Shown: piece after piece, positions 19,295 to 25,681 of the stretch
How positions within the stretch are numbered: position 1 is the first letter of the stretch
How the letters are laid out: the number at the start of each line of letters is the position of its first letter
From: Pseudoxanthomonas sp. J35
GTDB taxonomy: Bacteria; Pseudomonadota; Gammaproteobacteria; Xanthomonadales; Xanthomonadaceae
Assembly (NCBI RefSeq): GCF_000513995.1
Contig: NZ_AZVB01000026.1
Span: 920-44,535 of the forward strand
Length of the DNA: 43,616 nucleotides
Direction of reading: 5' to 3'
Notes under the pieces: model-generated
Told to the model about the DNA's origin: nothing
Database searches by the model: none
Seen by the model: the letters and a program-made list of their open reading frames with translations, nothing else
Translations under genes and position numbers: made by a program

Positions 19295-19308
19295 TTGATT
19301 TCAATCAA
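19295..19308 (+). promoter_or_regulatory. Perfect FNR/Anr-type box
   Basis: TTGAT-TTCA-ATCAA matches the FNR consensus TTGAT-N4-ATCAA at every position. It sits within a larger 18-bp palindrome (19293-19310). Its centre is 41.5 bp upstream of position 19343, the classic class II activator spacing if transcription starts at 19343. Confidence 0.8.
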
Positions 19309-19327
19309 TCTCCCCTTCGGGATGGCG

Positions 19328-19336
19328 TGCTGCAAT
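19328..19336 (+). promoter_or_regulatory. Extended -10 for the roadblock operon
   Basis: TGC-TGCAAT (four of six matches to TATAAT plus an upstream TGN) ends 6 bp before the ATG at 19343. Together with the FNR box it predicts a transcription start at the A of the start codon, i.e. a leaderless mRNA. No Shine-Dalgarno sequence is present. Confidence 0.5.
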
Positions 19337-19342
19337 GAATAC

Positions 19343-19732
19343 ATGAACGCGATCCCCCTCCAGCAGAACCAAAGGGCCCAGCAGATCCATCAGACGCTGG
19401 CGGACCTCAACACCTCCAGCGCCGACATCGAAGCCTCGGCCCTGATCTCGATCGACGGCCTGCTGATCGATGCGGTCATGCCCCAGGGCATGGACGAAGA
19501 CCGCATCGGCGCCATGTCGGCGGCGCTGCTCTCGCTCGGCGAGCGCACCGCGCGCGAACTGGGCCGCGGCCGCCTCGAGCGCGTCCTGGTCCAGGGCGAG
19601 CACGGCTACGTGATCATGACCGCCGCCGGCGAAGAGGCCGTGCTGACCGTGCTGACCAAGGCCGAGGTGAAGCTGGGCCTGGCCTTCCTTGACATCAAGC
19701 GTGCCGCGCAGGCCCTCGGCAGGATCGTCTGA
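19343..19732 (+). CDS. Roadblock/LC7 domain protein
   Basis: 129 aa made almost entirely of one roadblock/LC7 domain: DIEASALISIDGLLIDAVMPQ, then MSAALLSLGERTARELGRGRLERVLVQGEHGYVIMTAAGEEAVLTVLTKAEVKLGLAFLDIKRAA. In bacteria such proteins usually pair with Ras-like GTPases (MglB with MglA) or act as dimeric scaffolds. No GTPase gene is nearby. It leads a five-gene operon with gaps of 2 bp or ATGA overlaps. The ATG at 19343 is chosen because upstream in-frame sequence contains the FNR box. The precise role is unknown; a scaffold or regulator for the PAS and PhnD-like partners is my inference. Confidence 0.88.
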   Translation: MNAIPLQQNQRAQQIHQTLADLNTSSADIEASALISIDGLLIDAVMPQGMDEDRIGAMSAALLSLGERTARELGRGRLERVLVQGEHGYVIMTAAGEEAVLTVLTKAEVKLGLAFLDIKRAAQALGRIV

Positions 19733-19734
19733 AC

Positions 19735-20238
19735 ATGCGCGTGCTCCCCGACATGGTCCCGCCGGCGGAGCCGCATCGCTCCGCCAAAGCCATCTACCAG
19801 GACGGCACCTCCCGCGTCATCCACTGGAGCGATCGCGAGGTGCCCTTCCCCGACGGCCGTCTCATCGTCTCCAGGACCGACCTGGACGGCATCATCACCC
19901 ACGCCAACGCGGCCTTCGTCGAGATCAGCGGCTACAGCCGCGAGGAACTGATCGGCGCCCCGCACCACATCCTGCGCCACCCGGACATGCCCAAGGTCGC
20001 CTTCAAGGACCTGTGGGACACCCTCAAGCAGGGCCGCAAGTGGCACGGCTACGTCAAGAACCTGCGCAAGGACGGCGCCCACTACTGGGTCTACGCCACC
20101 GCGCTGCCGAACGTGCGCAACGGCGAGGTCGTCGGCTACACCTCGGTGCGCCGCAAGCCTTCGCGCAAGCGCATCGAGGAGCTGGTGCCGGTCTACCAGA
20201 AGTGGCTCGAGGAAGAGATCGCAGGAGTGGGCGCATGA
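19735..20238 (+). CDS. Stand-alone Aer-type PAS sensor protein
   Basis: 167 aa starting 2 bp after the roadblock stop. A single PAS domain covers about residues 33-150: PDGRLIVSRTDLDGIITHANAAFVEISGYSREELIGAPHHILRHPDMP, then FKDLWDTLKQGRKWHGYVKNLRKDGAHYWV and GYTSVRRKPSR. The RHPDMP and KW residues match the FAD-binding PAS of the aerotaxis receptor Aer. The HAMP and methyl-accepting signalling domains of Aer are absent, and no output domain is fused. It may therefore sense redox state and pass the signal by contact, probably to operon partners. FAD binding is inferred from similarity. Confidence 0.85.
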   Translation: MRVLPDMVPPAEPHRSAKAIYQDGTSRVIHWSDREVPFPDGRLIVSRTDLDGIITHANAAFVEISGYSREELIGAPHHILRHPDMPKVAFKDLWDTLKQGRKWHGYVKNLRKDGAHYWVYATALPNVRNGEVVGYTSVRRKPSRKRIEELVPVYQKWLEEEIAGVGA

Positions 20239-20987
20239 CGCTGAACATGCTGGTGGCGCCGGACTTCGCGCCCGAGAACTTCCCCGGCTGGTACATGCTC
20301 AGCACCCTGCTGCAGGGCCGCTCCGGCCTGCGCCTGCACCTGCTGATGCCCAGCGACGCCCACGAACAGGTGCGCATGCTGGCCGACGGCGGCGTCGACC
20401 TGGTCTACGCCAATCCCTTCGATGCCACCTCGCTGATCCGCAGCGAAGGCTACATCCCGTTCGCGCGCCCGGCCGGGCATTCGGACGAGATGGTGATCGC
20501 CACGGCCGCGACCTCGCCGCTCAACTGCGTCGAGGACCTGCAGCCGGGCTGCAGCATCGCCCTCACCGACAACCGCGACGTCAAGCTGATCGGCCTGCGC
20601 CTGCTCGAACCGGCCGACCTGGCCGAACAGGACATCCGCTGGGAACTGGCCAACAGCTACCAGGCCGCCGCGCGCATGACCCTCAACGGCCAGGTGGACG
20701 CGGGCTTCTTCCTCGCCTCGGCCTACCACTCGCTGGCGCGCATCACCCGCGAGCGGCTGAAGGTGTTGGTGGAAAGCAAGCTGCGCGACATCAGCCACGT
20801 GCTGCTGGCCCACCCGCGCATGACCGAAGACCTGCCCAGGCTGTCCGAGGCCCTGCTCGGCGTGAACCCGGCCGACCCGGGCGACCTGGAAGTGCTCAGG
20901 GCGCTGGGCCTGGCCAACGGCTTCGAGGCCATGGAGCAGGAAGACGCCGAGTTCATGATCGACCTGATGGACACCCTGCTGGATTGA
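20235..20987 (+). CDS. Cytoplasmic PhnD-like substrate-binding-fold protein
   Basis: 250 aa with ATGA overlap to the PAS gene. The fold is that of type 2 periplasmic binding proteins of the PhnD/SsuA kind: LNMLVAPDFAPENFPGWYMLSTLL, ADGGVDLVYANPFDATSLI, LNCVEDLQPGCSIALTDNRDVKLIGLRLL and GQVDAGFFLASAYHSLA. Unlike transport proteins it has no signal peptide or lipobox, and no ABC transporter genes are nearby. It is therefore likely a cytoplasmic ligand sensor. The ligand is unknown. An acidic tail (MEQEDAEFMIDLMDTLLD) may be an interaction helix. Confidence 0.82.
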   Translation: MTLNMLVAPDFAPENFPGWYMLSTLLQGRSGLRLHLLMPSDAHEQVRMLADGGVDLVYANPFDATSLIRSEGYIPFARPAGHSDEMVIATAATSPLNCVEDLQPGCSIALTDNRDVKLIGLRLLEPADLAEQDIRWELANSYQAAARMTLNGQVDAGFFLASAYHSLARITRERLKVLVESKLRDISHVLLAHPRMTEDLPRLSEALLGVNPADPGDLEVLRALGLANGFEAMEQEDAEFMIDLMDTLLD

Positions 20988-20989
20988 CC

Positions 20990-21619
20990 ATGCCCGGGAC
21001 CGCCGCCTCGCTCAACGCACGCCGCCAGTTCCGCACCCGCACCTGTGCGGTGCTGCGCGCCCCGCAGGACGCCAGCGCGCACCTGGCGCGCCTGCAGTCG
21101 GCCCTGCAGCTGGGCGACGTGGAACCGCTGCAGGGCACGCTGGCGGACCTGTTCGTGGCCCTGCCCAAGGAAGAGACCGCGATCCGCCAGGCCGCGCTGG
21201 CCCTGGCGGCGCCGCGGCTGCCGCCCTACGTGGCCGAAGCCTTCGACCGCAACGCCCACGGCCACGCGCTGACCCAGGTCACCACCCTGGCCACGCGCTG
21301 GAGCGTGTTCGCCCAGCCTTCGGCCAGCGTGCCGGCGCGGATCCGCCGCGCCAGCCCCGACCATTCGCGACGCCTGGCGGCGCGGGTGGTGGAGGCCCTG
21401 CTCGACGGCGAGCCGCTGCAGGCGGCGCGCATCGAGCGCGACTTCCTCGACCACTGCGTCTCCTGCCAGGACAAGTTCGCCTTCATGCTCGCCAGCCGCG
21501 ACCTGCGCCGCCACGAGATCGCCGTGGGCGACCGCTGGGAACAGGTCGCCGCCTGGCTGGAACAGCACGCGGCGATGGGCGAGAAGCAGCCCCCGCCCCG
21601 TTCAACGACACGGACATGA
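20990..21619 (+). CDS. Unknown helical protein with CxxC motif
   Basis: 209 aa starting 2 bp after the PhnD-like gene and overlapping the next start by ATGA. It is mostly helical and rich in Ala, Leu and Arg. A CVSC motif sits in DHCVSCQDKFAFMLASRDLRRHE near the C-terminus, and another Cys is near the N-terminus (RTRTCAVLRAP). The CxxC pair could bind a metal or form a redox disulfide, which would fit a redox operon. I do not recognise the family. The alternative TTG start at 20984 would add two residues. Confidence 0.75.
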   Translation: MPGTAASLNARRQFRTRTCAVLRAPQDASAHLARLQSALQLGDVEPLQGTLADLFVALPKEETAIRQAALALAAPRLPPYVAEAFDRNAHGHALTQVTTLATRWSVFAQPSASVPARIRRASPDHSRRLAARVVEALLDGEPLQAARIERDFLDHCVSCQDKFAFMLASRDLRRHEIAVGDRWEQVAAWLEQHAAMGEKQPPPRSTTRT

Positions 21620-22254
21620 CCCAGACCCTCGACAGCGTCGAAACCCTCTCCACCGCCATGTGGGTCCTGCCGACCCCGCGCGGTGCGCTGCATGCCTTCT
21701 CCTCCCCGGACCCGACGCCGATGCAGCGCGCGGTACAGGCGATGCTGCGCGACCAGTCCGCCCCGCCGCTGGAAAGCTGGCGCCGCAACCACGACCAGGG
21801 CGGGCGCATGCTCGAGCAGCTGCGCGAGCGGCAGTGGGTGCAGCTGCTGCGTCGCGAGGTGCCGGCGCCGGACGTGCGCCTGGGCGACTTCGCCCAGCAC
21901 GTGATCGCGCCGCTGTCCGGCGAGCGCCGCGCGGTGCTGGCCTCCGACAGCGGCTTCTGCCTGGGCCAGTCCGGCCTGTCGCAGGAGCAGGCCGAGACGC
22001 TCAGCGCCGCGGCCGCCGACTACTCCTCCTTCGCGCAGCGCCAGGCGCGCCGTGGCTGGGACGGGGCGCGCCGCGTCTCCTTCCACAGCGACCCGGACAT
22101 GCTGCTGCCGGACTGGTCGTTCGTGCCGTTCTGGGTCGACGGCACCGGCTACTGGCTGATCCTGGCCGGCGAACCGCTGCTCAACAACCTGGCGATGGTC
22201 GAGCTGGTGTGGAGCATCCAGCTGGCCGGCGCACGCTTCGCCGCGCCGCTCTGA
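21616..22254 (+). CDS. Second roadblock-like protein, last gene of the operon
   Basis: 212 aa. The C-terminal 110 residues look like a diverged roadblock/LC7 domain. The stretch RRAVLASDSGFCLGQSGLSQEQAETLSAAAADYSSFAQR lines up with ALISIDGLLIDAVMPQGMDEDRIGAMSAALLSLGER of the first gene. The ending WLILAGEPLLNNLAMVELVWSIQLA lines up with VLTVLTKAEVKLGLAFLDIKRAA. The N-terminal 100 residues are unlike anything I know. A roadblock homodimer or heterodimer with the first gene product is plausible. Similarity was judged by eye only. Confidence 0.7.
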   Translation: MTQTLDSVETLSTAMWVLPTPRGALHAFSSPDPTPMQRAVQAMLRDQSAPPLESWRRNHDQGGRMLEQLRERQWVQLLRREVPAPDVRLGDFAQHVIAPLSGERRAVLASDSGFCLGQSGLSQEQAETLSAAAADYSSFAQRQARRGWDGARRVSFHSDPDMLLPDWSFVPFWVDGTGYWLILAGEPLLNNLAMVELVWSIQLAGARFAAPL

Positions 22255-22276
22255 TCGAAGCGAAGTGAAGGCAGTT

Positions 22277-22309
22277 GCGCCGCCGCCCTCGGGCGGCGGC
22301 GCTGTTTTT
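22277..22309 (+). terminator. Strong rho-independent terminator of the roadblock operon
   Basis: A perfect 12-bp GC stem at 22277-22302 (GCGCCGCCGCCC/GGGCGGCGGCGC) with a 2-nt loop is followed by TGTTTTT. It lies 22 bp after the last stop codon and before the converging purT gene. Confidence 0.9.
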
Positions 22310-25045: not shown

Positions 25046-25329
25046 TGGAGGCGTTGGCTCCCCTGCTGCTGGCGCTGACCGGACTGCCGGCCGTGGGCAT
25101 CGCCGCGTGGTACGCGCGCGATGCCCGCGGTCCCTACGCCCGCGGCATCGCCCTGCGCTGGGCGCTGGCCTCGCTGGCGATCTTCGGCGGCGCCATCGGC
25201 CTGTACTTCGCCGGCGGCGACCGCACCGCCGCCACCGTGGTGGTGGTCGCGATGGTGGTGGCGGTCAACGCACTGGCGGTTTCGCTGGTGATGCACATGA
25301 AGCGCGGCGACCGGGATACGCGGCAATGA
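25045..25329 (+). CDS. Small membrane protein in the SPFH operon
   Basis: 94 aa. Its ATG overlaps the SPFH stop by one base (TGATG), so translation is coupled. Three hydrophobic segments are seen, at about 5-20, 34-52 and 59-83 ([23 protein letters not shown]). The tail is short and charged. The family is not recognised. The tight coupling suggests it works in the membrane with the SPFH protein. Confidence 0.75.
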
Positions 25330-25505
25330 GCGAGAAGAAGGCCTACCCGCTGCGGATCAACGCCGAAGTGCTGGCGGCGGCGCAGCGCTGGGCCGACGAC
25401 GAGCTGCGCAGCCTCAACGCGCAGATCGAGTACGTGCTGCGCGACGCGCTGCGCAAGGCTGGCCGGCTGCCCAAGCCCGGCGGGAAGAAGGAGAACGACG
25501 CATGA
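25326..25505 (+). CDS. Arc-type ribbon-helix-helix DNA-binding protein
   Basis: 59 aa with ATGA overlap to the upstream gene. The start [40 protein letters not shown] is a ribbon-helix-helix fold of the Arc/CopG kind. It has a short beta strand for DNA contact (AYPLRIN) and two helices, with the SLNAQIE motif typical of Arc family proteins. The tail is basic. It is likely the autoregulator of this operon through the 24139-24155 palindrome. That link is inferred from context. Arc proteins of this subtype commonly accompany SPFH genes. Confidence 0.85.
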
Positions 25506-25681
25506 GCACGCGCTGGCAATACCACGTGGTGGAGATCAAGCCGACCGTGCTGAGCGGCTTCAAGCTCCAGGAAGTGCAGGAAGCCCTCTCCCGCCAGGGA
25601 CAGCTGGGCTGGGAGCTCGTCAACATCATCACGCACGCGCCGATGATGCCGCTGATGGCGGTGTTCAAGCGCCCGGACTGA
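25502..25681 (+). CDS. DUF4177 family small protein
   Basis: 59 aa with ATGA overlap to the Arc gene. The pattern [10 protein letters not shown], then [27 protein letters not shown] and LMAVFKRPD, is that of the short DUF4177 family. In that family a WEYxVv strand is followed by a helix, LGxxGWELV and a closing strand. The family has no known activity. Co-occurrence with an SPFH gene and Arc suggests a conserved functional set. Confidence 0.82.

Follow-up and report, generated by a model that had tools for sequence, protein, structure and literature searches.

What does a pair of bacterial roadblock proteins act upon when it is encoded beside two likely sensors and no small GTPase? The question is raised by a five-gene operon in the window, by which is meant the whole stretch of 43,616 nucleotides from Pseudoxanthomonas sp. 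J35 that was analysed (assembly GCF_000513995.1, contig NZ_AZVB01000026.1, positions 920 to 44,535). In order, its genes encode an LC7/roadblock protein (RB1), a PAS protein, a PhnD-like protein, a protein labelled 'CxxC' and a second roadblock-like protein (RB2), and a preliminary description, made from the sequence, had proposed that they form an undescribed redox signalling module. The reading favored here, at a probability of roughly 0.6, is that a small-GTPase system of the Group 3 MglA type has lost the genes for its GTPase and the GTPase's REC-like partner, and that the operon is what is left of it, the half with the sensors and the roadblocks. The GTPase-free form appears to be derived: in related operons, genes for an MglA-type GTPase and for a REC-like partner stand between those for CxxC and RB2. 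The sequence basis of this reading consists of the shared operon, a PAS-PhnD cassette, changes of GTPase state, loss of the partner's tail and purifying selection; the roadblock fold of RB2 comes from a predicted model.

The five-gene arrangement recurs beyond the window. RB2 is found in 12 of 60 related genomes searched, its own included. The preliminary description had made conservation of the gene order in related genomes a test of its proposal, and the order is indeed kept in all eight relatives whose RB2 is more than 60% identical, six of which also share with the window the genes on either side, purT and one of the exonuclease family. Three more distant RB2 matches instead reveal the fuller form, in which the RB2 homologue lies directly 3′ of a GTPase gene (181-192 amino acids). 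A named survey, based on an RB1-alignment scan, covered the best 80 of 551 confirmed relatives and leans to close kin. RB1, PAS and PhnD occur together in 74 of these 80 loci, side by side in the locus maps; exactly the window's five families are present in 36, a GTPase and an extra gene are added between CxxC and RB2 in 16, an extra gene without a GTPase is added in 15, and the remaining 13 are incomplete, lie at contig ends or have another arrangement. The extra gene is loosely defined as any unassigned gene between CxxC and RB2 (126-985 amino acids), and in the GTPase-bearing loci it encodes a REC-like protein in nearly all cases. A GTPase is present in 22 of the 80, by gene call and by tblastn alike. 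Both forms occur within one genus, because a congener of the window organism (L023, 87% complete) has, on one short contig, genes for the GTPase, the REC-like protein, CxxC and an RB2 of 45% identity.

A wider survey, of 369 genomes of the class, recovered RB2 in 40 of them, again with its own included, and 40 regions were fetched of the 46 RB2 rows outside the own genome, the six omitted being second copies, partial or weakest matches. By six-frame profile search of these 40 loci, RB2 is present in 40 by construction, RB1 in 35, CxxC in 31, the GTPase in 29 and the REC-like protein in 18, a count that is probably too low for so variable a protein. PAS (cut at 150 bits) and PhnD are each found in 13, and these are the identical 13 loci, a coincidence expected by chance once in about 1.2 x 10^10 if the loci were independent, which they are not. 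Judged by this distribution, PAS and PhnD are an all-or-none cassette, and 12 of the 13 loci that have it also carry the GTPase. The order seen in gamma-proteobacteria, CxxC-REClike-GTPase-RB2-RB1-PAS-PhnD, is a circular permutation of RB1-PAS-PhnD-CxxC-REClike-GTPase-RB2.

The GTPases of the relatives (n = 21) share a TPGQ or APGQ motif and a D-x-R at G5 (21/21), and 20 of them have no G4 lysine. Absence of the G4 lysine and a D-A-R arginine are given as marks of MglA Groups 2 and 3 in the available parts of PMC4316618, where Group 3 systems, from beta- and gamma-proteobacteria, are described as MglA with one or two MglB proteins and a protein of REC-like N-terminus, variable linker and winged-helix-like C-terminus. 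By GTPase motifs, neighbours and taxonomy, the full operons of the relatives thus resemble Group 3 MglA systems. When family models were run on one full system (L105), the GTPase matched PF03029 and small_GTP weakly, the REC-like protein had no Pfam family and one NCBIfam match far under the cut-off, and neither RB2 nor CxxC had an NCBIfam family.

Neither the window operon nor its genome holds an MglA-type GTPase with D-A-R and without the G4 lysine: none was detected by a 21-row profile of the relatives' GTPases or by the sequence of one relative, and Ras/Arf models match only frames of 443-905 amino acids. The profile, which recovered 7 of 7 controls at 1e-82 or better, finds no such GTPase in 16 of 25 genomes with a GTPase-less operon, the window's included. 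The REC-like partner, with its variable linker and conserved C-terminal region, is found in relatives and was not detected in 18 of 19 five-gene genomes, again including the window's; in the 19th, a match of 20 bits was interrupted by two stops. Where the partner gene persists, its C-terminal end differs according to GTPase state. A GFF-x-x-LL-x-KLF-like tail is present in 15 of 16 GTPase-bearing versus 0 of 13 GTPase-less cases, as judged by eye from the printed ends of 29 genes longer than 250 amino acids, with the short L070, L071 and L114 and also L081 left out; the exception, L075, has a GTPase and no tail. In the partner alignment, the C-terminal region is missing from all five GTPase-less genes included (of the 13). 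We infer that this region and the GTPase work together, and since the tail is lost along with the GTPase, the tail region is predicted to act with it.

The distribution of GTPase states on a tree of RB1, PAS and PhnD argues for repeated change. The state switches at least five times, for example by four losses and one regain, on a quick tree of 71 rows with several weakly supported branches, 69 rows being counted for GTPase state (the others are a contig-edge locus and a mislabelled Streptomyces record) and 17 of the Psychrobacter loci, as well as every locus that lacks RB1, PAS and PhnD, being omitted. GTPase-less clades cover several genera of Lysobacteraceae (Xanthomonadaceae) and Comamonadaceae, as well as many Psychrobacter. 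The operons of Lysobacteraceae (Xanthomonadaceae) cluster with those of Lampropedia and Corticibacter at 99% support in the Shimodaira-Hasegawa-like approximate likelihood ratio test (SH-aLRT), a grouping suggestive of transfer between that family and Comamonadaceae. The Streptomyces record, L091, is titled Streptomyces cinereus JCM 3040; with 44% GC and an operon that groups with Moraxellaceae, it is probably mislabelled or contaminated.

What remains in the window lineage appears to be maintained. With the nearest relative as reference, the ratio of nonsynonymous to synonymous substitution rates (dN/dS, by NG86) lies at 0.11-0.26 in the five genes, as compared with 0.14-0.20 in three flanking genes; four further relatives give 0.13-0.56 and 0.25-0.47, respectively, absolute values being unsure for such GC-rich codons. 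By these ratios, all five genes are under purifying selection.

RB1 is an LC7/roadblock protein, as first described, with homologues 55-98% identical and a distant profile match to the MglB structure 6h5b (E = 3e-4). The second, roadblock-like protein of the preliminary description gains support from its predicted fold. By sequence, RB2 matches Robl_LC7 at E = 0.21 only and otherwise belongs to no family. Its predicted model (mean predicted local distance difference test score, pLDDT, 91.9) is mostly helical in its N-terminal part, shows the succession alpha-beta-beta-alpha-beta-beta-beta-alpha in its C-terminal part, and matches the roadblock structure 3kye and MglB structures with a Foldseek probability of 1.00 and a best E-value of 7.5e-4, a Streptomyces roadblock being among the matches. 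The template modeling scores are modest (0.52 by target length for the best match). RB2 is thus predicted to carry a roadblock fold, and the one or two MglB-type proteins of Group 3 systems have counterparts here in RB1, by Pfam, and RB2, by predicted fold.

The PAS protein finds its nearest solved structure, by profile, in Escherichia coli Aer (31cj/8dik; 2.2e-44). Its homologues retain the motifs TH-x-N (74/74) and RHP[DE]MP (72/74), which hold residues that we take to contact flavin adenine dinucleotide (FAD), and the protein likely binds this cofactor. The matches cover the PAS part only, those to NCBIfam kinases included, and the HAMP and methyl-accepting chemotaxis protein (MCP) signalling domains of Aer are absent, so the description of an Aer-type PAS without chemoreceptor domains stands.

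For the PhnD-like protein, the description as a PhnD fold without a signal peptide is likewise borne out. Hydropathy at the N-terminus is low among 74 homologues, most of which start at the first strand, so that no sign of a signal peptide was seen by these two measures (no dedicated predictor was used), and in 37 of 74 loci the PhnD-like gene shares 4 bp with that of the PAS protein. The protein is therefore probably cytoplasmic. No ATP-binding cassette (ABC) partner gene lies in the operon or in the genes flanking it; a signal peptide encoded upstream, along with transporter partners, had been named beforehand as a finding that would tell against the module, and neither this nor the other such finding, a gene order not conserved among relatives, was encountered. 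Profile matches of the family to PtxB (5o2j) reach E = 4.7e-6 and 1e-4, and in the alignment a conserved N-R-D-V and a two-residue gap stand opposite the S/T-rich oxyanion loop of PtxB, which presumably binds phosphite there. Phosphonate is doubtful as the ligand because N-R-D-V replaces the S/T-rich stretch. A second, divergent PhnD-like gene adjoins the operon in L024 (5564-6304) and L175, the L024 copy being 18-19% identical to that of the window.

The fourth protein had been introduced as an unknown CxxC protein. It does belong to no Pfam or NCBIfam family; the CxxC as a metal or redox motif was rejected, both cysteines being found at that place in only 34 of 70 homologues. Its predicted model (pLDDT 90.9; predicted template modeling score, pTM, 0.60) has nine helices, with no fold match at E<=0.001 and insignificant ones that are mostly TPR-like.

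The physical layout agrees with the tight spacing first described. From RB1 to RB2 the junctions are a 2-bp gap, a 4-bp ATGA overlap, a 2-bp gap and another 4-bp ATGA overlap, and the strong terminator is present. Pfam and NCBIfam scans of the five proteins bear out that no GTPase, transporter permease, kinase or MCP domain is encoded. The single promoter that had been claimed was not confirmed: no consensus promoter was recovered, sigma-70-like sites numbering zero, a test of little weight in the present organism. An upstream TTG at 19295 lies in the open frame of RB1, and the aligned homologues begin at or past 19343, which makes the ATG there the most likely start.

Features of the five-gene operon and their positions in the window
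Feature	Position	Strand	Evidence or remark
RB1, roadblock/LC7 protein, 129 aa	19343-19732	+	ATG start; Robl_LC7 1.3e-17
PAS, single Aer-type PAS domain without receptor part, 167 aa	19735-20238	+	PAS_3 5.2e-18
PhnD-like, periplasmic-binding-fold protein, probably cytoplasmic, 250 aa	20235-20987	+	PF12974 7.9e-39
'CxxC', all-helical protein, perhaps a helical-repeat adaptor, 209 aa	20990-21619	+	predicted model
RB2, mostly helical N-terminal domain and predicted C-terminal roadblock fold, 212 aa	21616-22254	+	predicted model
CxxC/RB2 ATGA junction	21616-21619		site of the REC-like and GTPase genes of relatives; nothing intervening in the window
Intrinsic terminator, 11 G-C pairs and T run	stem 22277-22302, T run to 22309	+	

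Several observations weigh against a loss from a Group-3-type system. Among the 11 class-wide GTPase-less loci, 10 have neither PAS nor PhnD (five contain CxxC and RB2 only and five CxxC, RB2 and RB1, some on short contigs) and only L175 has both, so that GTPase-less roadblock loci are not tied to the PAS-PhnD cassette. L075 carries a GTPase inside an otherwise GTPase-less clade, and 9 of the 25 genomes with a GTPase-less operon encode a weaker, more distant small GTPase at another place. Only for the window genome (99.99% complete) can absence be called firm; other genomes may be incomplete. The Group 3 assignment is drawn from motifs shared with Group 2, from neighbours and from taxonomy rather than from a tree with the sequences of PMC4316618, and the REC and winged-helix folds of the partner are predictions of that source rather than of the present analysis. 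A relaxed GTPase interface in the GTPase-less roadblocks was considered and rejected: positions conserved in GTPase-bearing but relaxed in GTPase-less systems number none in RB2 and four candidates in RB1, in a comparison that excluded six edge or doubtful loci and whose GTPase-less rows are taxonomically narrower. So few relaxed positions fit a working RB1/RB2 pair, but they mark no lost interface. YN00 estimates of dN/dS failed for most pairs, and a single-sequence search of solved structures (PDB) with the PhnD-like protein gave no match at E<=1. PilT was uninformative as a link to phenotype, a match being present in 358 of 369 genomes. Cofactor, ligand, interactions and phenotype of the operon proteins are putative throughout.

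Were the RB1/RB2 pair still to serve a GTPase encoded elsewhere, whether another MglA-type protein or a large GTPase, nothing essential would have been lost. The nine genomes with a further MglA-like GTPase speak for such an arrangement, but the other 16, the window genome among them, have no detectable one, and the long frames are all that the Ras/Arf models match in the latter. In addition, the distant GTPases seem to have roadblock neighbours of their own: five regions were fetched, and in the four where called, a roadblock-type gene stands within about 2 kb. The small-GTPase loci L220, L222, L223 and L224 of relatives, likewise no more than about 2 kb from a roadblock-type gene, are distinct from the five-gene operon. 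Service to a distant GTPase is thus judged unlikely. Under decay, the operon would be what is left of a disappearing GTPase system and would do little, in keeping with the patchy occurrence of RB2 among related genomes and with the repeated changes of GTPase state on the tree. Against this, gene order and reading frames are maintained across genera, and GTPase-less clades span the genera listed above; dN/dS is below 1 and similar to that of the flanking genes, and decay is therefore very unlikely, indeed the least probable of the explanations considered.

Conceivably, the PhnD-like protein could be an enzyme or a moonlighting binding protein and the operon a metabolic rather than a signalling unit. 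The binding-protein fold is also found in some enzymes, and the replacement of the S/T-rich stretch by N-R-D-V, which renders phosphonate binding doubtful, would suit such a role. Yet in the class-wide loci PhnD accompanies PAS in 13 of 13 cases and the GTPase in 12 of 13, RB1, PAS and PhnD stay together in 74 of the named loci, and by size and strand the locus maps display no other constant neighbour gene (those neighbours being unannotated). A metabolic unit accordingly seems quite improbable, hardly more credible than decay.

If the reading as a sensor-and-roadblock remainder of a GTPase system is right, the operon could work as follows. PAS would read redox or oxygen state through FAD, as in Aer, while the cytoplasmic PhnD-like protein would read a small metabolite; the helical CxxC protein may be an adaptor, and both inputs would change the assembly of the RB1/RB2 roadblocks. 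In the full systems, this assembly would control the GTPase, which in turn would act on the REC-like protein, and in the window lineage it would have to act on another target. The genetic architecture is observed in the sequence, and each interaction in this scheme is inferred from it. A first guess for the output is the type IV pilus or surface behaviour, because of the Group 3 data from Snodgrassella (PMC11112851, in the parts available) and the analogy with MglA/MglB. A bolder proposal, tentative and somewhat short of an even chance, is that the roadblock pair became its own output: the GTPase would have been removed in several lineages, the sensors and scaffold being kept as a switch for redox and metabolite signals that needs no GTPase, in loose analogy to a bacterial Ragulator without Rags. 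MglA-type GTPases would have in PAS-PhnD a portable sensory head, with a periplasmic-binding fold inside the cell.

In this way the poorly known Group 3 MglA systems gain two candidate inputs, one an Aer-type PAS and the other a cytoplasmic protein of PhnD fold, with a bearing on how bacterial Ras-like GTPases are regulated. The repeated GTPase losses amount to natural knock-outs, and full, GTPase-less and five-gene species together could show which parts need the GTPase. The operon may also illustrate how a small-GTPase switch is rewired without its central enzyme.

Elsewhere in the window, a tyrosine recombinase is encoded at 47-1012 on the forward strand (PF00589, 2.8e-36; PF13495, 1.5e-25), which we take to resemble an integron integrase. 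At 25326-25681, on the same strand, two tiny genes with a 4-bp overlap encode an Arc-like DNA-binding protein (just under the cut-off) and a DUF4177 protein, a pair also present in several relatives.

Compared with known systems, the operon combines familiar parts in a setting for which the literature searched, covering few subscription papers, yielded no description of the order RB1-PAS-PhnD-CxxC. The GTPase core is already known, its physiology hardly so, and neither the addition of PAS, PhnD and CxxC nor the form without GTPase was met in that literature. The module is not wholly undescribed, its GTPase-bearing relatives resembling systems already on record. With the Aer receptor it has the PAS domain in common, but its PAS protein has no HAMP, membrane or signalling domain. 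With the PhnD, PtxB and AioX binding proteins it shares PF12974, and differs in that a signal peptide is not in evidence, the operon encodes no transporter and the S/T-rich loop is replaced. The MglA/MglB polarity module of Myxococcus xanthus, in which a roadblock GTPase-activating protein acts on a small GTPase (available parts of PMC9481161, with 0 occurrences of MglC in the main text), offers an analogy to roadblocks that here are distant, have no GTPase and share their operon with sensor genes. The conservons of actinobacteria are likewise operons of a sensor, a roadblock, an unknown protein and a GTPase (PMC4316618; PMC13343842, both in part), whereas the window operon has soluble sensors and contains neither a CvnA histidine kinase nor a CvnD GTPase.

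Closer parallels are found among proteobacteria. The mgl locus of Snodgrassella communis encodes, according to its authors, a GTPase of Group 3, the group that the GTPases of the relatives here resemble, and mutation of an 'orphan' mglB altered soft-agar spreading and host colonisation; that genome retains mglA, unlike the window's, and the available passages name no PAS-domain gene, PhnD not having been searched there (PMC11112851). Orphan MglB proteins were, as of 2014, without an experimentally characterised case in the parts of PMC4316618 available, and the orphan roadblock pair described here is accompanied by likely sensors. The main text of that paper has 0 occurrences of 'pas', PhnD not having been searched and the supplement lying outside the scope. 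The window operon is not filed as a Group 3 member, because two defining features, the GTPase and the REC-like protein, fail. Its relatives do share the set of roadblocks, REC-like protein and GTPase and the beta/gamma range of Group 3 MglA systems (PMC4316618, in part), and next to these systems the window operon is without the GTPase and REC-like protein and has added the PAS-PhnD pair and the helical CxxC protein.

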